The notes beneath the pieces were generated by a model. It did not search any database. It worked only from the letters and a program-made list of their open reading frames with translations, and was not told the DNA's origin. Of a stretch of 25,382 nt of DNA, positions 6,308 through 25,382 are shown piece by piece (position 1 is the first letter of the stretch; each line of letters begins with the position of its first letter). The translations under genes were made by a program, and so were the position numbers. This DNA comes from a virus, in the IMG/VR virus record IMGVR_UViG_3300036712_000019, positions 1 through 25,382 of that record, one strand, 5' to 3'.

Positions 6308-7111
6308 TCATCTCCTCAGGGTGGCGAGCGCGGCGCGGAGGTCCGAGACCCGCTGCTCTGTGCTGATGGTGTCCGGCACTGGGTGTTTCAGTGCGGCGAT
6401 GAGCCGTGCCGGGGGCGGTGCAGCGTCGCGGCCTTTCCACCGCCAGTCCGCCATGAGCTCGCGGACGATGGCTTCGGTCGCGGCCTCTTCGTCGGGGCTG
6501 GGCTCACCATCGGTCCCATCACCGTCACTGCTGCTCTGTGGTGGTTTCTTCGTCCCGCAGCTGGCCTCTACGCGGGTGGCGAGACCGGCGGTGACGGCTT
6601 CGTCGGCGGTCAGCCAGGTCTCGTCGATCATGGCCTGCCGCCACGTGGCGACGTCACCGCCAGCCTGGGTGACATAGACGGCAGCGATGCCGTCGGAGAT
6701 GACGTCGAGGGAGTCAGCGGTCTTGCGGAATTCAGCGGCGCTTCCGGATGCCCACAGCTTCATGGCGTCGTGGATCATCATCGTGGATCCCGGGCGCATG
6801 ATGATGTCGTTGCCGGCCATGGCCACGATGGACGCGGCGGAGGCTGCGAGGCCCTGGACGTCGACGGTCACGTCGGCCGGATGGGCTGCGAGCGCGTTGT
6901 ATATGGCGATCCCGTCGAACGCATCGCCACCGGGGGAATTGACGTAGACGCTGATCGTCGTGGCGGTGGATTGCCCGATGGTCGACATGAGTTCTTCGGT
7001 CCAGATATCCCAGCCGATGACGCCGTACAGGTCGATCTGGAGCGTGTCGGCGTCGTCTGTCAGGGCCATGGGCCGATGGCTGGTGAGGCCACGAAGCGCG
7101 CGCAGATTCAC
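6308..7111 (-). CDS. Prohead protease, ClpP-like (S14 family)
   Basis: This 267-residue serine protease is expected to cleave the capsid scaffold region during head maturation. Visible family motifs are VYVNSPGGDAFDGIAIYNAL (SPGGD at about 59-63), the nucleophile region GLAASAASIVAMAG (Ser about 91) and MMIHDA (His about 114). The C-terminal part after about residue 185 is charged and variable (SSSDGDGTDGEPSPDEEA), then helical. I chose GTG 7111-7109, which overlaps the portal stop as GTGA and has AAGGAG upstream; the longer frame to 7183 is Arg-rich and lies inside the portal gene. It lies two bases before the capsid gene, the standard order. Confidence 0.88.
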   Translation of the reverse strand: MNLRALRGLTSHRPMALTDDADTLQIDLYGVIGWDIWTEELMSTIGQSTATTISVYVNSPGGDAFDGIAIYNALAAHPADVTVDVQGLAASAASIVAMAGNDIIMRPGSTMMIHDAMKLWASGSAAEFRKTADSLDVISDGIAAVYVTQAGGDVATWRQAMIDETWLTADEAVTAGLATRVEASCGTKKPPQSSSDGDGTDGEPSPDEEAATEAIVRELMADWRWKGRDAAPPPARLIAALKHPVPDTISTEQRVSDLRAALATLRR

Positions 7112-9324
7112 AGGGGTTCTTTCTCCTTCCACTTCGTGGTGTCCTCTCCGGGACGCCAGACGACGACGACGGTGCCACGGCACCGTGGACCGCCCTCACA
7201 GTCGACGTACCCTCCGGACGGGTACAGGCGACGCACCATGGTGAGGTCGTTCCCGAGCCACCGCCGGTCGACCTCCCGACACGCCGGGCACGTATTGCTG
7301 TCGAGAACCTCGGAGGCGTAGTACGCGGGAATCGGGGCATCCGGCTGCTCCGCGGCCGCCGCGAACGTCGCCAGCCGTGACTGATTCTGGGCAGCGGTCA
7401 GAGCGGCCCCGAGGGCTAGGCGGGGTTGGGCATCGGTCAGATCATCCAGGGCTACGCGGACGGCTGCTGCGACCTCGTCCCCGGACATCCCGGACTGTGC
7501 CAGCGGCAGAGCGGTTCGAGCAGCGGACACCGCGAGCGTCAGGCCCAGGAGCGCCACCACGACCTGGGCGTGCTCGGTGATCCAGGTCTCGTCGACCGGG
7601 GCAGGGTCGGCCGGGACGTTCTGGGCCTCGACTTCATCGGCAGCGGTGCTGGCAGCAGTCTCAGCGATGCTGGTCAGGGCCGCGACGAGCACGGCGAGGG
7701 CCTGCCCGGTAGGGGTGGAGAGGTTGGTGAGGTTGGTGAGGTCTCCGCTGTCGATGGCGTCTCTGACCTGCCGGGTCAGATCGGCGTACTGGGCGGCGAG
7801 GACCGGGCCCCATTCGTCGAGGACGTCGTCGAGGTGTCGGAGCCAGGCTGCCTGGACGGCGTCGAGGTCGGGGTCCTCGGAGAGTTCGGCTGGGATGCCT
7901 TCGGGTGGTTCTGGGAGATCTGCCTGCGCCGTGTGGTGGGTGGTGGCATGGTGGTGGTGAGGTCCCTCTGCTGCTTCTGCTGGCGTCGTGTCTACCCCCC
8001 TAGGACGTTGTCGCCGGCCGGTGTTTCTCTCGTCAGCAGAGGGGCCTCCACCATTACCGTCCCCGTCAGTGGTGTCTGTCCGTTTCCCGATCGTGGTGGT
8101 CGTGGTGGTCGTGGTGGCTGTGGGGCCGACCCACTCCATGGCTGGCAGATCGACCGTGGTCAGGACGTCTTCAGGATGCCAGCCGGCTTCGACGAGGGTC
8201 CGGGCGGCGGTAGCGCGGATGGCCAGGCCCGCGTTCTCCAGCTCCTCGTCCGCGCTGACGGGGTTCTCGAAGTCAAACTCGAGGTGATCGGCCCCGGCGT
8301 ACTGGGTCAGGAGTCCGCGGTTCAGGACGCCGCGGAGGCGCTCGACCAGGGGGAGCGTGATTTCGGATTGGCGGATCGCGACGGCGGCCTGCGCGGTCGC
8401 CCTGTTCACGTCGGTCGTGGTCCCCAGGAGCGGCAGCGGGTACCGGAAGGCCTCGCGGATCGCTTCGCTACTGATGCGGCGTAGCTCGGTGAACTGCATA
8501 TCCCGCATGCTGTAACTGGCGTTGACCCATTTGCCGCCGCCCTCGATGGTCGCGACCCTGTGCGCGTTCCGAACGCCCTTGTGGGAGGCACGCCAACGTT
8601 TCTGCTGGGTCTCCCACTCGGCATCGGACAGGACACGCTCGTACTCGATGACCCCACCAGGCGTCGCGGAGTTCAGGAAAAAGTTCCGATTCCACTCCGC
8701 CGAGTAGGCGGCTGATTCGGTCTCGACCATGACCGACTGGAGTACACCGATACCGTGGTAGGGGTCCCAGGGGTTGGGGGCTCGCCAGCAGATGACGTCC
8801 TCGACGGGCAGGCGCGTGATCGACCCGTCCGGGCCCCGGTACTCCCAGGCCTCGATGAAGTCGAGCTTGGAGGGGACGGGGTTCATGCGGTCGGGGCGGG
8901 CCGGCCAGATCTCGACCGGGACGCGGCCCAGCCGTGTCAGGATCCCGTACGCCTCACCGACCAGCTCGTAGTGCAGTGTCCACATGGACACCAGGTCGGT
9001 CCAGGACATGTGCGGGTTCGGCCGGGCCATGACCGCGAGCGCCGGGTGGGTGGTGATCTCAATGCGGTCTTCGGGAAGTCCGGAGGGCGAGGACCGGTAG
9101 AGGTGCCAGCGGACGGCGGCTACGGAAGACACGATGCCGTCGAGGACGGCTGTCAGTGTCCCGGAGCGGCCCATGGACGTGCGGAGGATCTCCTCGCGGT
9201 GGGCGAGGCTGGCACCGCCATCGCCGGTGAGGAGGCCGCCGAGGGCGGGGTTGACGTAGGCGATGGGGGCCTGCGCGGACGGGTTGCGTCTCCTGGGAAG
9301 GATGCTTCTCCAGGTGATCGCCAC
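7108..9324 (-). CDS. Portal protein fused to a MuF-like domain
   Basis: This 738-residue protein is much longer than an ordinary HK97-type portal (about 400-500). Residues about 1-410 are the portal, the dodecameric DNA gate: IVSSVAAVRWHLYRS, HPALAVMARPNPHMSW, DVICWRAPNPWDPYHGIGVL, NRNFFLNSATPGGVIEYE, TTDVNRATAQAAVAIRQSE. A low-complexity linker follows, with a Thr run, an acidic Gly-rich stretch and a His cluster. Residues about 490-738 resemble a MuF/minor head protein, ending with a metal-site-like ASEVLDSNTCPACREVD (Cys 679, 682), YPSGGYVDC and CEGGPRC. The start is GTG 9324 (VAITWRSILPRR), preceded by AGGATCAGGAC. MuF proteins act in early head assembly or are injected. Confidence 0.88.
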   Translation of the reverse strand: MAITWRSILPRRRNPSAQAPIAYVNPALGGLLTGDGGASLAHREEILRTSMGRSGTLTAVLDGIVSSVAAVRWHLYRSSPSGLPEDRIEITTHPALAVMARPNPHMSWTDLVSMWTLHYELVGEAYGILTRLGRVPVEIWPARPDRMNPVPSKLDFIEAWEYRGPDGSITRLPVEDVICWRAPNPWDPYHGIGVLQSVMVETESAAYSAEWNRNFFLNSATPGGVIEYERVLSDAEWETQQKRWRASHKGVRNAHRVATIEGGGKWVNASYSMRDMQFTELRRISSEAIREAFRYPLPLLGTTTDVNRATAQAAVAIRQSEITLPLVERLRGVLNRGLLTQYAGADHLEFDFENPVSADEELENAGLAIRATAARTLVEAGWHPEDVLTTVDLPAMEWVGPTATTTTTTTTIGKRTDTTDGDGNGGGPSADERNTGRRQRPRGVDTTPAEAAEGPHHHHATTHHTAQADLPEPPEGIPAELSEDPDLDAVQAAWLRHLDDVLDEWGPVLAAQYADLTRQVRDAIDSGDLTNLTNLSTPTGQALAVLVAALTSIAETAASTAADEVEAQNVPADPAPVDETWITEHAQVVVALLGLTLAVSAARTALPLAQSGMSGDEVAAAVRVALDDLTDAQPRLALGAALTAAQNQSRLATFAAAAEQPDAPIPAYYASEVLDSNTCPACREVDRRWLGNDLTMVRRLYPSGGYVDCEGGPRCRGTVVVVWRPGEDTTKWKEKEPL

Positions 9325-9355: not shown

Positions 9356-10705
9356 TCACCACAGGTCGCGGATCTGTACTCCGCGGGGCTGCCGGGCCCA
9401 CATGGCCGCGTACCGCATCGCGTCGCACCCATCGTCCAGGAGCTTCACGGGCTGTTCGCGTTTGGTGGGGTCGTCCCAGATGTAGCCGGGGATCTCCTCG
9501 GCGGTACACGTGGGGGCGACGGCCTCGACGAGGGCGGGGTCGCGGTGGCGGACGGCGTCCCGGTGGACGACGAGCATGGGCCGGGGCCGGTGGTCGGAGT
9601 GGGCCGTGGGATCGGTCGGGATCCGTAGGGCCTGCTGGACGACTTGGATTCCTTCGAGGACGCGTTTGTCGGCGGGGGTGGTGGATTGGCCGAGGAGGGT
9701 TTCGAGGCGGGCTCGGCTCTCGGCGTCGTGGTCGCAGACGATGGCGGCCGGGCGGGGTTCGAGCCACTGGCCGGTTGCTGGGTCGGTGACCTCGGAGAGG
9801 ATCTGGGCTGCGTGTTGGTCGATGGTCCAGCCGGTGCGGTAGTGCTCGGCGTACAGGATCATGCGGCCGTCGGGGTCGACGGCCCACCGCTGGAGGACGA
9901 ACGGGTGCAAGTAGCCGAAATCGACAGACCACAGGTGGGTCCAGGATTTCGGGAGGGGCCGGGGGTCGACGACGTGGATGGCGGGGTCCCATTCGTCGTA
10001 GATCTGGCCTTCGGCGGCGACCCACTGGCCCAGGCGTAGGCGCTTGTGGCGGACGCCGGTGAGGTTGTCCAGGCGGGCGAGGTACACGGTGCCCTCGGGG
10101 GTGGGCTTCTTGGTGTCCTGGTCGACGAGGCGGGGGTTGTCCTCGTGGTGGCAGGCGATGAGCCGGGTCCGGCCCTGGTCGCACCGGGTCTTGAGCCAGT
10201 GGGAGGGTTTGTCGGGGTTCGTGTCCGCGATGATCTGCTGGTAGGACACGCGGCCGTTGCGCAGGCGGGTCGTCAGGTGCTCCCAGTCCGTCTGCGTGAG
10301 CTCGATGGCCTCCTGGACGAAGATCAGGTCGTACTCGGAGGACATGATCTTCGTGGCCTTGTCCATGCCACCGACGAGGACCCGGGCCCCGTTGCTGAAG
10401 ATGTATGCCGGCGGTTCCACGCTGCTGCCGCCGTAGTAGCGGACGACGCCGGCGGCCAGGACCTCGGCGGCGACGTGCTCACGCCACGTGACCAGACCCG
10501 TCGACGACAGGGACGCCAGGGTTTTCCGGACCAGGAGCGCCCTCGCCCTGGGCACGGACAGCATGACCGCGAGGACTTTCTCCAGGCAGGCCCGGGATTT
10601 CCCGGTGCCGGCGGGCCCGGACAGGAGGACCTCGTCGTCGCGGGCTGTCATGAGGGTCCGGGCGGCGCCGTAGGGCGAGTACTCGTGGACCAGGGACAGG
10701 CCCAT
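9356..10705 (-). CDS. terL: Terminase large subunit
   Basis: This 449-residue motor packages DNA into the prohead and cuts concatemers. The Walker A motif is GPAGTGKS at residues 30-37; a Walker B-like strand is YDLIFVQEA near 125-133, and the coupling motif ADTNP is at 160-164. The RNase H-like nuclease half has WSVDFGYLHPF (Asp 262), AIVCDHDAES (Asp 325, 327) and KLLDDGCDAMRYA (Asp 424, 425, 428). The Q before the Walker B glutamate is a little unusual. ATG 10705-10703 overlaps the small-subunit stop (TGATG); the longer frame to 10927 is a Pro/Arg-rich shadow. A 31-base gap separates it from the portal gene. Confidence 0.92.
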   Translation of the reverse strand: MGLSLVHEYSPYGAARTLMTARDDEVLLSGPAGTGKSRACLEKVLAVMLSVPRARALLVRKTLASLSSTGLVTWREHVAAEVLAAGVVRYYGGSSVEPPAYIFSNGARVLVGGMDKATKIMSSEYDLIFVQEAIELTQTDWEHLTTRLRNGRVSYQQIIADTNPDKPSHWLKTRCDQGRTRLIACHHEDNPRLVDQDTKKPTPEGTVYLARLDNLTGVRHKRLRLGQWVAAEGQIYDEWDPAIHVVDPRPLPKSWTHLWSVDFGYLHPFVLQRWAVDPDGRMILYAEHYRTGWTIDQHAAQILSEVTDPATGQWLEPRPAAIVCDHDAESRARLETLLGQSTTPADKRVLEGIQVVQQALRIPTDPTAHSDHRPRPMLVVHRDAVRHRDPALVEAVAPTCTAEEIPGYIWDDPTKREQPVKLLDDGCDAMRYAAMWARQPRGVQIRDLW

Positions 10706-15080: not shown

Positions 15081-15440
15081 TCAGAGGTTCCGGGGGGCGG
15101 CCCCCTTCTCGAAGACCCCGACGATCCTGTCCGGGTCATCAGGACGTGTCTCCTTGAACCAGTCCTCAGCCTTCTGCAAATGGCTGCGGCCGTCATCGAT
15201 GATCGTGATGAGACAGACCGGGATCCGGTACTTTTCAAGCCAGGCGTGAAGTACTGGCTGGTCGGCTCTCGAGGCGAGGTCGGTGGACACGATGATCCGG
15301 CCGTCCCCCCTCAGGAGCACCCTCATGAGGCTGACGTGCCCATGATCGGGTTCTCCCCAGTCGATCGTCCCATCGTCGCTGCGGGTCGCGTACGGGGCGA
15401 TAAGGCCCTCGAGCTGGAAGATCCAGGCAAGGCGTGGCAT
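15081..15440 (-). CDS. Degenerate HAD-like protein (catalytic aspartates replaced)
   Basis: This 119-residue protein starts MPRLAWIFQLEGLIAPYATR. The segment IFQLEGLIAP has the shape of HAD motif I (IFDLDGTLAP), but the nucleophile and acid/base aspartates are Gln 9 and Glu 11. A motif II-like strand RIIVSTDLASR (about 48-58) and a helix WLEKYRIPV (about 67-75) follow, then IDDGRSH. The order and spacing fit a small HAD phosphatase, but catalysis by the normal route is not possible. It may bind a ligand or partner. ATG 15440 has AGAGGAG upstream; a terminator follows. The fold call is inference. Confidence 0.5.
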   Translation of the reverse strand: MPRLAWIFQLEGLIAPYATRSDDGTIDWGEPDHGHVSLMRVLLRGDGRIIVSTDLASRADQPVLHAWLEKYRIPVCLITIIDDGRSHLQKAEDWFKETRPDDPDRIVGVFEKGAAPRNL

Positions 15441-16616: not shown

Positions 16617-16642
16617 GGCAACATCGTATCATACGCTTACGG
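16614..16642 (-). promoter_or_regulatory. Conserved promoter/operator element, copy 2
   Basis: On the minus strand: CCGTAAGCGTATGATACG then ATGTTGCCATG, the last ATG being the start of the 16254-16616 gene. It matches copy 1 (13107-13134) almost base for base. TATGAT is a likely -10, and its TGA is the stop codon of the upstream gene (16629-16631). CGTATCATACG (16625-16635) is a perfect palindrome. Confidence 0.55.
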
Positions 16643-17537
16643 TGCGGGATGCTCTCACAGCCGCACGAACCCCCTCTGCCAGACCAGCCACCCGCTCCGC
16701 CGGAGCGCTCACCCGCTCACACTCCCGACACCGACCCGCCGGCTGTCCCGGATGCTCCGGACACTCCGGCGGTCCCACCGCTGCCCGCACCACCAGATCC
16801 CCCGGGCGCAGGCCCTGCACGTACCGGACCACCGCCCCCACCCCAGCACCTGCCCACTCACGCGCCCCACACGCCCTCCGGAGCATCACTGGAGACACCC
16901 CGGCACGTCCCAGACACCGCACAGCGGCCCGCAGCGCCCCAGACGCCCTGAGAGGCGCCGCCAGGTCCTGGCGTCCCACACCGTCGATCACGGTATCCAG
17001 GAGGTCGTCGTGCGCCGGAGATGCCTGGGACGAGGCCTCGTCCCCGCCTTGGATCTCGATCGTTTGCTCCCTCCCTCCTGCTTCTTCTGCCTCATCTGGT
17101 GAGACGACAGGCGGTGGGAGGGAGGGTTTGTTTCTACTCCCAGTCTCTACCCCCTGTAGGAGGCCTGGTCGACCGACGGCTGGTCGACCGGCGGCTGGTT
17201 TCCCGTCGTCGGTGTGACCTGCACTCTGGGAGGCCTCCCGTAGGGGGGTGTCCGACAGGTCCCACCCGGTGCGGATCCTCCCGAGGTCGTCCCGGACCCG
17301 GGTCCGCACGAGGTATCCGGCGGTCTCCAGCTCTCGCAGGGCCGTGCGGATGGCGTCCCGGCCCTCGGCGCCGGGGCGCTCGCGGGCGAGCTGCTCGGCG
17401 GAGGTCCGCCAGTCCAGGGGGCGGGACAGGACCGCGACGAGGATGCCGACGGCCCGGTAGGACAGGCGCGGGTCCTGGAGGGCGGCCCGTTGGAGGACCG
17501 CCACGGTGTCGCCGGTGATGGCGCTACGCCGGATCAC
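16629..17537 (-). CDS. Replication-type winged-helix protein with a C-terminal Cys/His knuckle
   Basis: This 302-residue protein matches the initiator/helix-turn-helix type common in actinobacterial phages and plasmids. Residues about 22-100 form a winged helix: DPRLSYRAVGILVAVLSRPL, then WRTSAEQLARE, DAIRTALRELETAGYL and a beta wing (VRTRVRDDLGRIRTGWDLSD). A long flexible Gly/Pro linker follows, then a helical C-terminal part and a metal knuckle CPEHPGQPAGRCREC (Cys 259, His 262, Cys 270, Cys 273). The start is GTG 17537 with only a weak ribosome site. It likely loads the replication machinery or binds the phage origin. No separate DnaA-box cluster was seen. Confidence 0.68.
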   Translation of the reverse strand: MIRRSAITGDTVAVLQRAALQDPRLSYRAVGILVAVLSRPLDWRTSAEQLARERPGAEGRDAIRTALRELETAGYLVRTRVRDDLGRIRTGWDLSDTPLREASQSAGHTDDGKPAAGRPAVGRPGLLQGVETGSRNKPSLPPPVVSPDEAEEAGGREQTIEIQGGDEASSQASPAHDDLLDTVIDGVGRQDLAAPLRASGALRAAVRCLGRAGVSPVMLRRACGAREWAGAGVGAVVRYVQGLRPGDLVVRAAVGPPECPEHPGQPAGRCRECERVSAPAERVAGLAEGVRAAVRASRTVSV

Positions 17538-20025: not shown

Positions 20026-20642
20026 GCTGGCTCCAGGCCCTCCGGGACGTCCTCCCGGCCGAGGAACGGGAGGGGGGGGTTCACCCCTCCCCTCCCCCAC
20101 CGGCACGGACCCCCATCAGTGCCCCCATCAGGGGAAACAGGGGGTCCACCCCCCGCCGTGAACCCTCCGGTGAACCCCCCGCCGTGAACCCCCCCGGCCC
20201 CGTGGACCCTGTGGACGAGGCGTGGTGGTCCCGCCGCCGGATCCTGTGGGCCACCCGGGGCGGGGACGTCATCGACGCCACCACCCTCATGATCGCGGAC
20301 CCTCGTCACGAGGGCGAGCGCACCACCCCCTACGTCCTGGTCGCGTCCGGCTGGGACCGGGACGACGTCCTGGCCCTCATCGACCCCGCCCCCGAACCCG
20401 ACGACGACGAGGACCAGGACGACGAGGAGCCTGGCGAGGACCGCGAGCGCGTGGGCCTCGACGAGCGGGTCCGCTGGCTCCTGGAGCGCCTCGACCAGGC
20501 CCCCCTCGACGCCCCCATCGTCGTAGCCCGTCTGGCGCACGCCGTCCGGGAACGGTTCGCGGGGATGTCGGAATCAACTGCCCGACGCCTGGCCCGCCAG
20601 GCGCGAGACATCAAGGAGACCGAGGAGACCGATGATGAGTGA
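20022..20642 (+). CDS. Soluble protein with Pro-rich linker and C-terminal DNA-binding-like helix pair
   Basis: This 206-residue protein begins at GTG 20022 (VSWLQALRDVLPAEEREGGV). A Pro/Arg-rich linker of about 50 residues (to about residue 65) overlaps GTGAACC repeats in the DNA. The middle has WWSRRRILWATRGGDVIDAT and YVLVASGWDRDDVLALIDPA, then a highly acidic run. The end reads VARLAHAVRERFAGMSESTA and RRLARQARDIKE, resembling a helix-turn-helix. A DNA-binding role coupled to the membrane genes is inferred. It overlaps the next gene by 11 bases. Confidence 0.6.
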   Translation: MSWLQALRDVLPAEEREGGVHPSPPPPARTPISAPIRGNRGSTPRREPSGEPPAVNPPGPVDPVDEAWWSRRRILWATRGGDVIDATTLMIADPRHEGERTTPYVLVASGWDRDDVLALIDPAPEPDDDEDQDDEEPGEDRERVGLDERVRWLLERLDQAPLDAPIVVARLAHAVRERFAGMSESTARRLARQARDIKETEETDDE

Positions 20643-20943
20643 CCCCTACGGGATGACTGACCCCTATGACCCGGGTGACCCCCAGGGTCACGACCCTCGT
20701 GACCCGAGTGACCCGATGACCCCTGACCCCCAGGGTCACGACCGAGTGACCCGTGACCTCCATGACCTCCGTGACCGGTTCACGCCCTGGGTCATCGCGA
20801 CCATCGTCATCTTCACGCTGATGCTGACGCAGAGGGTCATGACCCCCCGACCCGACCCGGTGACCCGTGACCCGGGTGACCTGGTGACCCCCACGGTCAC
20901 GGTGACCCACCAGGTGACCCCTAACCCGGTCGTGACCCCATGA
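20632..20943 (+). CDS. Single-span membrane protein with DP-repeat arms
   Basis: This protein is 103 residues from ATG 20632 (or 102 from 20635). Its N-terminal arm is repeats of DP (SDPYGMTDPYDPGDPQGHDP) and the C-terminal arm is PDPVTRDPGDLVTPTVTV. One membrane segment, TPWVIATIVIFTLMLTQRVM, lies between (about 51-70). The arms are produced by a DNA-level array of TGACC units, so their protein-level meaning is doubtful. Both ends overlap neighbours (ATGA junction at 20940). See repeat block 1. Confidence 0.6.
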   Translation: MMSDPYGMTDPYDPGDPQGHDPRDPSDPMTPDPQGHDRVTRDLHDLRDRFTPWVIATIVIFTLMLTQRVMTPRPDPVTRDPGDLVTPTVTVTHQVTPNPVVTP

Positions 20944-20945
20944 CC
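20640..20945 (+). repeat. TGACC(C) repeat array, block 1
   Basis: About 21 plus-strand TGACC units plus several reverse copies (GGTCA) occur in 306 bases, apart from a gap at the membrane-span codons. Many are GTGACCC or TGACCCG. Unit-to-unit distances are mostly 7 to 9 bases. Two 15-base palindromes TGACCCCCAGGGTCA (20676, 20724) are 48 bases apart. The array lies entirely in coding DNA. Confidence 0.9.
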
Positions 20946-21965
20946 CCCCCCGCGACTCCCCGACCCAGGGTCATCTCACCGGTCATGGCCCTGGCCCTCA
21001 CCGGAGTCCTAGTAGTCGTCGTCGCCGGCGACGTCTGGTCGTTCCGCGAGCAGACCGACCTCGCCCACGATCTGGCCTTCGATCTCCCCTGGCTTCTCCC
21101 CGTCGTCCTCGACGGCCTGGCCGCCGCTCTCGCCGCCGTGGCCTTCGCCGCCTCCCTCGACGGCCGCCCGGCCCTCGGAGCACGCCTCGGCACCGCGCTC
21201 GCCGTCACCGCGAGCGCAGCCTCGAACCTCTCCGCCGCCGCCCTACGCCTGGGCACCGAGTCCCCCCGGGACCGGATCGCGCTCGCGATCGCCGCGGGAA
21301 TCCCGGTCGCGGCGAACCTCGCGTGGGAGGTCATCCTGGGGGAGCTGCGTCGGCAGGTGATGCGGCGCCGGGGGCTGCCGGCTCCGGTGCCGGTCCCGTG
21401 GCCCAGGGTTGTGCGGGTGGTCCTGGCCCCGGTGTCGACGATCAGGTCGTGGAGGAGGGTCGTGCTGGGGCTGACTGACCCTGCGAGGGGTCATGTGACC
21501 GGTGACCCGATGACCCGTGACCGGGGGGTCAGTGACCCGGTGACCCACCGGGCCGTGACCCGTGACCTGGTGACCCCTCGGGTCAGTGACCCCCGTGATC
21601 CGAGTGACCCGGTGATCCGTGACCCGGGTGACCCCAGGGGTCACGGCCGAGTGACCCCCCCTGACCCGGTGACCCCAGGGGGTCATGACCCGGTGACCCC
21701 TGACCCCGTGACCCCTCGGGTCAGTGACTCCCCTGACCCCGTGACCCCAGGGGTCGTGACCTCCCTGACCCGTTCCACGGCAGACATCGACGCCTGGGTT
21801 ACCCAGGCGCTCACCAGTAGGGCCACCAGGTCACGGATCATCCGCGCGGCCATGACCGGTGACCCCCTCGACGGAGCCGGGCCCATCCCCCGGACTGTCT
21901 CCGAGTCCACTATCAAGCGCGCCCTCCGACGCACCACCACCACCCGACAGGAGCACACAGCATGA
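20940..21965 (+). CDS. DUF2637-like membrane protein with repeat insert and C-terminal HTH-like region
   Basis: This 341-residue protein has a membrane half with VMALALTGVLVVVVAGDVWS (15-34), LPWLLPVVLDGLAAALAAVA (49-68), LGTALAVTASAASNLSAAAL (83-102) and IALAIAAGIPVAANLAWEVI (113-132), the layout of the DUF2637/spread-type proteins of actinobacterial conjugative plasmids and phages. Residues about 178-278 are a low-complexity DP/VT-repeat insert from array block 2. The C-terminal part (STADIDAWVTQALTSRATRS, then VSESTIKRALRR) resembles a helix-turn-helix. It starts at ATG 20940, overlapping the previous stop, and ends overlapping the kinase start. A role in plasmid-type spread or segregation is inferred; no TraB-like ATPase is visible. 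Confidence 0.68.
   Translation: MTPPATPRPRVISPVMALALTGVLVVVVAGDVWSFREQTDLAHDLAFDLPWLLPVVLDGLAAALAAVAFAASLDGRPALGARLGTALAVTASAASNLSAAALRLGTESPRDRIALAIAAGIPVAANLAWEVILGELRRQVMRRRGLPAPVPVPWPRVVRVVLAPVSTIRSWRRVVLGLTDPARGHVTGDPMTRDRGVSDPVTHRAVTRDLVTPRVSDPRDPSDPVIRDPGDPRGHGRVTPPDPVTPGGHDPVTPDPVTPRVSDSPDPVTPGVVTSLTRSTADIDAWVTQALTSRATRSRIIRAAMTGDPLDGAGPIPRTVSESTIKRALRRTTTTRQEHTA
21476..21771 (+). repeat. TGACC(C) repeat array, block 2
   Basis: About 25 plus-strand TGACC units in under 300 bases, spaced mostly 7-10 bases or about twice that (15-16), with interleaved reverse copies. A perfect 17-base palindrome GTGACCCCAGGGGTCAC spans 21628-21644. Several units read GACCCGGT or GACCCGGG. The array forms the insert of the DUF2637-like gene. 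Confidence 0.9.
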
Positions 21966-22450
21966 CCGACCCCTACAAGACAGCCAGCAAGATCGCAGCA
22001 TCCAACTATTACTGCTTGATCATCATGCGGGGCCTTCCCGCCTCCGGGAAAACGACCTTCGCCCATGACTTTGTCAGGGCGAGGGCCGCGGAAGGAAGAT
22101 CAGCGTTCCGGATCGGCAGGGACGACCTCCGAAACCTCCTGTGTGTGGGAAGCGTCCCACGCAAAAAATGCATTGGGACCCGTGAACAGGAAGACACCGT
22201 CACTGAGCTGGAGAAGACGATGATCCCCCTCATGTTCGCTAGCGGAGCACGCTGGGTCGTCGAGGATTCAACGAATCTCCACCCTGCCAGCATTGCCAGA
22301 CTGGAAAGTCTAGCTAACGACCTCAACATCCCATCAGTTGTCATCGAGCTCGATGTTCCCGTCGAGAAGTGTGTGGCACGCGACGCGCTCCGTGAGGACA
22401 GCGTCGGCGAAGACGTCATCCGGGTGATGGCCACCGCCATGGGAAAGTAG
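21962..22450 (+). CDS. Polynucleotide 5'-kinase (P-loop, T4 Pnkp kinase-like)
   Basis: This 162-residue enzyme is expected to phosphorylate 5'-OH ends of RNA or DNA using ATP. The P-loop GLPASGKTT spans residues 24-32. The acceptor/base region RIGRDDLRNLL has Asp 54/55 and Arg 57, as in T4 Pnkp. EDSTNLHP (101-108) is the second active strand, and the lid CVARDALRED has Arg 140 and Arg 144. ATG 21962 has CAGGAGCACACAGC upstream and overlaps the previous stop. The DNA is visibly lower in GC than the preceding gene. It lacks the fused phosphatase domain; that activity is encoded separately at 22902-23324. Confidence 0.8.
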   Translation: MTDPYKTASKIAASNYYCLIIMRGLPASGKTTFAHDFVRARAAEGRSAFRIGRDDLRNLLCVGSVPRKKCIGTREQEDTVTELEKTMIPLMFASGARWVVEDSTNLHPASIARLESLANDLNIPSVVIELDVPVEKCVARDALREDSVGEDVIRVMATAMGK

Positions 22451-22901: not shown

Positions 22902-23324
22902 ATGAGTACCTGGATCGTTGACGTAGATGGCACCCTCGCCCTACGCGGCGAGCGCGGACCCTACGACTGGGACCGCGTCGGAGAAGACACCGTAAATCGT
23001 CCCGTGGCTGAAATCGTCACAGCCCTACAAAACACAGGACACACGATAATCATCGTGTCCGGGCGGATGGAATGCTGCCGGACCGAGACCATCCAGTGGC
23101 TCGCCCACTGGGAAATCCCCTACTCAAGGCTGTACATGCGCAGGGAAGGAGATCGAAGAAAGGACGCGATCGTCAAGAAAGAAATCTTGGATGAGATCCA
23201 GAGATGGATGGCAGCCGAAGGAAAACCGGACGATCTCAGGTCCATCGATGACCGCAAACAATGCGTAGACATGTGGCGGTCCAACAACTTCTTCTGCGCG
23301 CAAGTCGCGCCAGGAAACTTCTGA
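22902..23324 (+). CDS. Polynucleotide 3'-phosphatase (HAD, T4 Pnkp phosphatase-like)
   Basis: This 140-residue HAD phosphatase removes 3'-phosphate or 2',3'-cyclic phosphate ends. The motifs are complete: motif I DVDGT (Asp 7, Asp 9), motif II VSGR (Ser 53), a basic motif III region (about 81-93) and motif IV IDDRKQCVDMWR (Asp 116, 117). The end CAQVAPGNF matches the T4 Pnkp phosphatase end. ATG 22902 has GGAGGAAAACC upstream, itself preceded by the recurrent AACCACCAC. Together with the 5'-kinase it would convert broken ends to 5'-phosphate and 3'-OH for ligation. No RNA ligase is visible in the window. Confidence 0.82.
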   Translation: MSTWIVDVDGTLALRGERGPYDWDRVGEDTVNRPVAEIVTALQNTGHTIIIVSGRMECCRTETIQWLAHWEIPYSRLYMRREGDRRKDAIVKKEILDEIQRWMAAEGKPDDLRSIDDRKQCVDMWRSNNFFCAQVAPGNF

Positions 23325-24618: not shown

Positions 24619-25265
24619 GGGTCATCGCCCTGGACACCGAGACCACGGGTCTCGACTGGCGGGCGTCCGTGTGGGAGATCGCGGTCTGTCCGTGTCTCAG
24701 CAGTGGGCCAGGAGAGGTCGAGGCAGTCTTCGTCCAGCCCGTCGGGCCCTACGACTATCTGCGGCTTCCCTCCTATTTTCGGAGGGATTACGAGAGCAGG
24801 TACGACTCGGGAGTTGCCCTCGACCGACCAGAGGCAGCTGCCTGGTTGGGGAAGATCTTCACCCCCGACTCGGACGGAAAACCGATCCTTGTCGGGGCCG
24901 TGCCAGGATTCGACGATCGGATCATCCGGCAGTCCCTTCCCAGCTTCAAGCCGCCCTGGCATTACCACGTCCAGGATGTGGAGACGCTCGCTGTCGGCTA
25001 TCTGAGGGCCCTGCAGACAGCCGTGATGACGGATCCTGAGCGGGACGCGCTCCGCCGGATCCTGACCCCGCCGTACGACTCGACGGCCCTATCGCGGGCT
25101 GTCGGTGTCGAGCCTCCCGGGCAGGGTGTCAGGCACACCGCCGGCGGAGACGCCAGATGGGCGGCGGAGATGTGGGATGCCGTGCATCGTGGTGATCCCC
25201 GTGTGCTCTCCCAGCACTGGCAGCATCGTATCTGGGAGGCCGCCGCCGAAACCCTGGAAACCTGA
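24606..25265 (+). CDS. Second DEDDh-type exonuclease
   Basis: This 219-residue protein overlaps the first exonuclease by 13 bases. ExoI is ALDTETTGLD near the N-terminus (MAPVRVIALDTETTGLDWRA), an ExoII-like VPGFDDRIIRQS lies mid-protein, and the end has HTAGGDARWAAEMW with the H-x4-D of DEDDh enzymes. The region between (HYHVQDVETLAVGYL) resembles the related substrate-binding segment. It is compact and lacks the N-terminal extension of its neighbour. ATG 24606 is preceded by CGAGG only. The pair may be ancient paralogs with different substrates. Confidence 0.72.
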   Translation: MAPVRVIALDTETTGLDWRASVWEIAVCPCLSSGPGEVEAVFVQPVGPYDYLRLPSYFRRDYESRYDSGVALDRPEAAAWLGKIFTPDSDGKPILVGAVPGFDDRIIRQSLPSFKPPWHYHVQDVETLAVGYLRALQTAVMTDPERDALRRILTPPYDSTALSRAVGVEPPGQGVRHTAGGDARWAAEMWDAVHRGDPRVLSQHWQHRIWEAAAETLET

Positions 25266-25382
25266 CCTGCCCGGCCCCGGTCCGGTGGGTCACCGGGTCA
25301 CCGGCCACCGGCTGGAGCGGGCCTGGTCTCGGGCCGGCGGGCGGCCCGCACCCCCCCCGCCCCGGGGCGGGCCGCCCCCCGC
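25266..25382. other. G/C-rich structured end with TGACC-type motif
   Basis: GGGTCACCGGGTCACCGG (25287-25304) repeats the motif of the coding arrays in reverse. An 11-bp inverted repeat (GGGCGGCCCGC 25339-25349, GCGGGCCGCCC 25367-25377) brackets a C8 run and CCCCGGGG. No gene. It may be a terminator, a packaging/cohesive-end region or a contig end. Confidence 0.6.

Follow-up and report, generated by a model that had tools for sequence, protein, structure and literature searches.

Genes and repeats at the locus

The window (the whole stretch of DNA that was analysed, a virus record of 25,382 bases) carries a dense array of TGACC units in two coding genes, ORF A and ORF B (Table 1). A plus-strand operon runs from ~19,000 onward, with small membrane proteins coming first, and the portal, terminase and ERF genes all lie on the minus strand. 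While the first-pass annotation spoke of a DUF2637-like gene of plasmid-spread type, the portal and terminase identify the window as a phage fragment and not a plasmid.

Table 1. Positions of the genes, array blocks and other repeats discussed in the text.
Feature	Position	Strand	Family or basis
Portal protein	7108..9324	-	gene match
Terminase large subunit, marks the window as phage	9356..10705	-	
Replication initiator	16629..17537	-	PHROG replication initiation / HTH families
15-bp direct repeats, 2.3 copies, inside initiator gene; candidate iterons apart from the TGACC array	17165..17199	.	
P0003, 206 aa	20022..20642 (start uncertain, 20184 possible)	+	no Pfam family above cut-off
ORF A, 103 aa, one predicted transmembrane segment (aa 52-72), repeat-encoded tails on either side	20632..20943	+	
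Array block 1a, TGACC units, ORF A N-terminal tail	20640..20794	+	
Array block 1b, TGACC units, ORF A C-terminal tail	20835..20945	+	
ORF B: membrane domain, linker, C-terminal helical domain	20940..21965	+	DUF2637 PF10935
Array block 2, 24 TGACC + 6 GGTCA, encodes low-confidence linker aa ~180-279	21476..21774	+	
C-terminal helical domain coding sequence, putative DNA-binding domain	21777..21962	+	predicted structure
Two more TGACC units, within C-terminal domain coding sequence	21853..21866	+	

ORF B belongs to DUF2637, matched over aa 18-176 with an E-value of 4.3e-26 (92.2 bits against a gathering score of 22.8). Its AlphaFold model, built from a 7-sequence alignment, is of low confidence overall (mean pLDDT 49). 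The helices of the membrane domain are placed within residues 14-144, the linker has a pLDDT of ~29-41, and the C-terminal helical domain reaches ~72-76 in most blocks. Fold searches with the helical bundle of ORF B as query, which left the C-terminal part outside, returned generic helical bundles and nothing specific. The array had been described as interrupting a DUF2637 gene, but it instead fills the linker between the membrane and C-terminal domains as well as both tails of ORF A. As the words are confined to these tails and the linker, a few units of ORF B aside, they occupy stretches that tolerate almost any peptide.

The first TGACC unit of the array is the TGA stop of P0003, and the last unit of block 1b overlaps both the stop of ORF A and the start of ORF B (ATGACC). 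The last helix of P0003 (SESTARRLARQ) is similar to the end of ORF B (SESTIKRALRR); the structure model of P0003 was of too poor quality for use. A second repeat, TGAACCCC-like and present in 3-4 copies and one inverse copy, is found in the part of P0003 that is disordered (~20070-20195), and also in the sister phage G002. Downstream of ORF B on the same strand are an AAA_33 kinase (21962-22450) and a PNKP-type phosphatase (22902-23324), possibly the split end-repair pair of a phage. No Rfam family matched anywhere in the window.

The same TGACC array is found in two sister contigs, G001 (33.2 kb) and G002 (36.7 kb), and is common to these three phages only, whose ORF B proteins are 91-92% identical. 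G002 ends in an exact 127-base terminal repeat (L010 1-127 and L011 17613-17739) and is therefore a complete circular genome of 36,612 bases, with closure probably at the assembly k-mer. It encodes a portal, a terminase and an O-like initiator, and no tyrosine integrase was detected in the closed genome (36.6 kb). In the phage collection, phages of Thermobifida and Streptomyces have the nearest terminases (≤58% identity), and the nearest genomic DUF2637 proteins are in Micromonospora. Since these relatives are all actinobacterial, the host is presumably some actinobacterium. When ORF B, the array region and the relative L219 were compared with the phage and plasmid collections, at the DNA and protein levels, there were no matches.

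The TGACC array exceeds codon-based expectations

On the plus strand, ORF A has 20 copies of TGACC and ORF B has 28, of which 24 lie in the linker; reverse copies number 5 and 10, respectively. This agrees with the about 46 units described in the first-pass annotation, and the spacing of 7-9 bases or doubles of it was likewise reproduced, as the units are mostly spaced by 7, 8 or 9 bases, or else by 15, 16 or 18. The density of TGACCC is ~138 times that of the remaining window, and the G+C content of the array region is ~71%. A few further TGACC/GGTCA units (TGACCCGGTGACC, minus strand) are located at 25263-25300, near the contig edge.

Two codon-preserving null models were compared with the observed counts. 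When synonymous codons were permuted within the gene, 11.6±1.7 copies were expected in ORF A and 14.0±1.8 in the ORF B linker, and with genome codon usage the expectation fell to 4.6±1.8 and 3.7±1.7, against 20 and 24 observed. Codon shuffling, which had been named beforehand as a possible way of explaining the array away, thus leaves the motif density of both regions above the nulls. The DUF2637 core of ORF B shows no TGACC excess (1 copy vs 1.6 expected under the codon null). Codons ending in T precede GAC in 12 of 15 cases in ORF A and 15 of 23 in ORF B, compared with 122 of 1288 elsewhere.

Both permissible reading frames are in use, as claimed earlier. ORF A reads 12 units as Asp-Pro type and 8 as Val-Thr type, ORF B reads 14 of each, and neither gene has a unit in the TGA frame. 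The TGA-frame copies at 20640, 20941 and 21963 are the genuine stop codons of P0003, ORF A and ORF B.

The word is conserved between sister phages and the peptide is not

The comparison of the three sister phages shows how the array changes. Between the window and G002, the aligned array of ORF B differs by 19 substitutions, of which 2 fall in the TGACC core against 10.4±1.9 by random placement, and 26 of 27 TGACC sites are kept against 17.8 expected. For the window and G001, 5 core substitutions were found where 14.1±2.1 were expected. The pair G002 and G001 shows weak avoidance of the core, with 11 substitutions vs 12.5 expected when compared one way and 7 vs 11.6 when compared the other way; however, the number of sites kept exceeds expectation in every comparison. 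At third codon positions, pooled counts from these three sequences, which are not independent, give 7 differences at 182 core positions vs 16 at 118 spacer positions.

The peptide behaves differently. Changed codons in the array are mostly nonsynonymous (nonsynonymous/synonymous 12/6, 16/7 and 13/5), which is the opposite of the membrane domain (6/17, 8/12 and 5/17). In ORF A of G002, whole segments flip between the DP and VT readings with the TGACC word kept. The outcome that would have spoken against the array as a DNA element, peptide repeats conserved in relatives without the DNA motif, is thereby reversed, as the peptide changes freely and the word stays. It is well supported that constraint or maintenance of the TGACC array acts on the DNA and not on a peptide repeat, in line with the earlier suggestion of selection or expansion of the DNA itself: the nulls are exceeded, the peptide varies and the word is kept between sisters. 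Gene conversion or concerted evolution among the repeats could mimic or help the conservation of the cores.

Arrays in other DUF2637 genes

Other DUF2637 genes were screened with the same codon-null test as ORF A and ORF B. DUF2637 genes of other mobile elements bear multi-frame arrays of their own, with the words TGAGCC, CGAAC, TGAAC, CGACC and GCGCA, and the TGACC array is one case of this wider pattern. In the phage G003, which encodes portal, terminase and tape-measure proteins, the DUF2637 linker (L009 2700-3190) has 10 TGAGCC copies vs 2.3 expected, and its TGAGCC/GAGCC repeats are spread over three frames with a period of ~11.6 bp. The word of L219/L292 is GCGCA, with a period of 11.4 bp. 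No significant periodicity was found for L218, and for L222 one of five words reached P 0.047. The words TGACC, TGAAC, TGAGC, CGAAC and CGACC fit YGAVC, a post hoc consensus without statistics, and GCGCA does not.

Five family-level relatives carry 28-30 copies of a word, i.e., CGAAC in L286, L289 and L290, TGAAC in L287 and CGACC in L288. Forward copies per frame are 0/11/10 for TGAAC, 4/9/7, 5/7/8 and 4/10/9 for CGAAC, and 4/6/10 for CGACC. Hence, the TGAAC and TGACC arrays skip just the stop frame, and the CGAAC and CGACC arrays use all three. Skipping of the stop frame by the TGA-containing words alone is as predicted from maintenance at the DNA level.

Arrays are not a general property of the family. 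Many DUF2637 genes have none, including three with TraB-like neighbours (L295, L311 and L319), and no array was found in the Streptomyces-type DUF2637 genes tested. Among control phage genes, 1 of 39 was clearly above z 3, in a single frame. The DUF2637 gene of L318 (G006:C2), which has no TraB-like neighbour, has 18 CCGGCA copies vs 6.7 expected, mostly in one frame, and this is perhaps a peptide repeat. Among the matches listed in a pattern scan of IMG/VR, most were single matches, in-frame 6-bp repeats or AT-rich contigs with seemingly non-coding repeats. Four contigs with 31% G+C (L110, L113, L186 and L187) contain dense, apparently non-coding arrays of the GC-rich GGTCAC, spaced by 7-10 bp and located beside ordinary genes.

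The genome G413 holds two integrated elements, L286 and L287, which are 94-97.5% identical over ~11.5 kb. Their TraB-like proteins are identical at 757 of 760 residues, whereas their DUF2637 proteins share 238 of 421 aligned residues, and the word differs as well: L286 has 28 CGAAC and 3 TGAAC copies, and L287 has 8 and 30, respectively. The switch extends to both sides of the membrane domain. As the TraB-like proteins are nearly identical while the DUF2637 gene and the word differ, the word travels with the DUF2637 gene, as observed in this one pair, among relatives outside the phage group of the window. The two elements differ mainly in this gene and its word, and look as if their words had been switched to avoid cross-talk.

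A candidate binder and a proposed explanation

The C-termini of DUF2637 relatives give weak profile matches to the helix-turn-helix (HTH) of known PDB regulators (best E 0.013), and the DUF2637 protein of L290 matches LexA_DNA_bind with an E-value of 4.9e-5 and 23.5 bits, just under the cut-off of 23.7. The putative recognition helices of the CGAAC proteins share an STA motif (STSTAH, SSSTAW and APSTAH), and the corresponding segments are SVGTVH in the TGAAC protein and SKTVAN in the CGACC protein; with five proteins, this covariation of HTH and word is too small for a test. The C-terminus of ORF B in the window gave no significant alignment to the HTH of the relatives (hhalign probability 2.5). 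Nevertheless, its position at the C-terminus, the SESTIKRAL motif and the analogy with the relatives suggest that this domain of ORF B may bind DNA, and the TGACC array would be its likely target.

We propose that the array provides sites for the C-terminal domain encoded by the same gene and thereby tethers the element to the membrane, an explanation that we consider evenly balanced between right and wrong. The repeats would be clustered binding sites for a sequence-specific DNA-binding protein, stored on either side of the membrane domains of the DUF2637 gene and of its partner ORF, in coding stretches that are disordered and tolerant of sequence change. The likeliest binder would be the DUF2637 protein itself, through its small C-terminal helical domain, so that one gene might form a self-contained cassette of a membrane-anchored protein and its own address label. 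With many units bound, the phage or integrative element would be anchored at the membrane, which may serve partition, spread or transfer, and elements that coexist might escape cross-talk through a change of word. The proposed tethering function is inferred from the membrane domain, from SpdB2 of pSVH1 and from repeat-based maintenance sites such as the parS of RedRock.

Alternative explanations

The array might instead be a neutral, minisatellite-like expansion, in which short GC-rich units spread by slippage or recombination and survive where the protein is disordered. Array indels between the sister phages, the relaxed peptide constraint and regular GTGACCCG tandem repeats in unrelated actinobacterial chromosomes would fit such a process; the chromosomal repeats look like ordinary minisatellites and were set aside. 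However, the units here are irregularly spaced and occur in both orientations, their cores are conserved above the spacers, also at the pooled third positions, and arrays recur in DUF2637 genes but clearly in only one of the control genes, there in a single frame. Together with the word switch on both sides of the membrane domain in G413, this makes neutral expansion distinctly unlikely. Selection on the peptide (DP/VT repeats) or on a structure in the mRNA is highly improbable. Relatives also have low-complexity linkers, and the fold of the linker RNA is more stable than those of dinucleotide shuffles (z -3.75). Yet two or three frames are in use at once, nonsynonymous changes outnumber synonymous ones in the array and the DP/VT switch in ORF A of G002 keeps the word, all of which argue against the peptide. 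The gain in folding is expected from the reverse copies of the word, and the absence of an Rfam match speaks against an mRNA structure.

The remaining alternatives concern other binders. The first-pass annotation had suggested a clt-, iteron- or partition-like site and the search for TraB/FtsK, ParB and Rep genes. The array does resemble clt, parS and iterons, and a replication initiator is present, but no FtsK/TraB, ParA or ParB was detected in the window or the sister phages. Origin iterons for the initiator would be in keeping with the O-like/HTH initiator of the phage and with the in-gene iterons known from lambda (PMC5043065). However, the TGACC array lies in genes other than the initiator gene and has a high G+C content. 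By BLASTP, the initiators of the window and G002 are unrelated in their N-terminal parts, with 54% identity in the C-terminal parts, while both phages keep the same array word; the array is therefore unlikely to be the iteron set for that initiator, and TGACC was rejected as such. The initiator genes of the window and G002 (L010:14896-15903) each hold short direct repeats of their own, in G002 at 15245-15308, and overall an iteron function is very unlikely. A reading with more in its favour, though still unlikely, is that a TraB/FtsK-like translocase loads at the array as at the clt of conjugative plasmids in Streptomyces. All strong chromosomal arrays (L286-L290 and L292) lie within a few kb of a TraB-like protein that is hydrophobic in its N-terminal part, has Walker motifs and matches a winged helix at its C-terminus, and known clt sites are short repeats, one of them partly within a tra gene, with TraB recognising 8-bp repeats (PMC3583192, PMC4170104). 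The phage would then have acquired the array with an spd-type gene, or would borrow the translocase of another element or the host. Against this, searches with PF01580 and a TraB-like profile, the latter added because PF01580 misses the divergent TraB-like proteins, gave no match in the window, G001, closed G002 or phage G003; the word switches in G413 when the TraB-like protein does not; and three TraB-like loci (L295, L311 and L319) lack arrays. A clt function may still apply to the TraB-bearing elements and is not the best account for the phages. As to partition, neither PF13614 (ParA) nor PF02195 (ParB) matched at E 0.1 in the window and sister phages, and ParA is missing from the families of the 56 ORFs of G002.

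Significance and comparison with known systems

If binding by the DUF2637 protein itself is correct, a single DUF2637 gene would supply a membrane-bound, sequence-specific binder together with its own many-copy array in disordered coding stretches, with words mostly of the form YGAVC that are used in all frames free of stops. Each element would then have a private address, so that near-identical elements could coexist in one cell, and the specificity of each element could be read from the array without experiment. Tentatively, self-addressing membrane tethers of this kind, whose word and binding domain would change in step, may represent a class not described before from the phages and integrative elements of actinobacteria. 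DUF2637, a family without an assigned function, has a single mention in the open-licence literature searched, and binding arrays in its mobile-element members would give the family a testable job. The TGACC, TGAAC, CGAAC and CGACC arrays can also be seen as a clean case of DNA-level selection overriding the peptide, and the pair of elements in G413 makes word specificity directly testable.

Among known systems, the lambda origin within gene O is alike in that repeats bound by the initiator lie in the coding sequence of their own binder (PMC5043065). However, lambda has a few 19-bp iterons by an AT-rich region and a replication initiator as binder (PMC5043065), whereas the TGACC array consists of dozens of 5-7-bp words placed in a GC-rich stretch, in tails and a linker around membrane segments, and its proposed binder is a membrane protein. 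The mycobacteriophage RedRock is likewise an actinobacteriophage with short-repeat arrays, as its parS comprises two sites of eight direct 8-bp repeats for prophage maintenance (PMC7157519). Unlike the window and its sister phages, in which none were detected, RedRock has ParA and ParB, and no statement that its parS lies within coding sequence was found. The clt sites of Streptomyces share the clustering of short repeats in actinobacterial mobile elements, adjoining or partly within transfer genes; the clt of pWTY27 has four TGACACC copies (PMC3583192) and TraB recognises 8-bp repeats (PMC4170104). They differ in that no translocase was detected in the phages here and that the word goes along with DUF2637 rather than with the TraB-like gene. 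SpdB2 of pSVH1 is a DNA-binding membrane protein for which binding was reported as non-specific (PMC4170104), and in being a membrane protein that binds DNA it resembles what we propose for ORF B.
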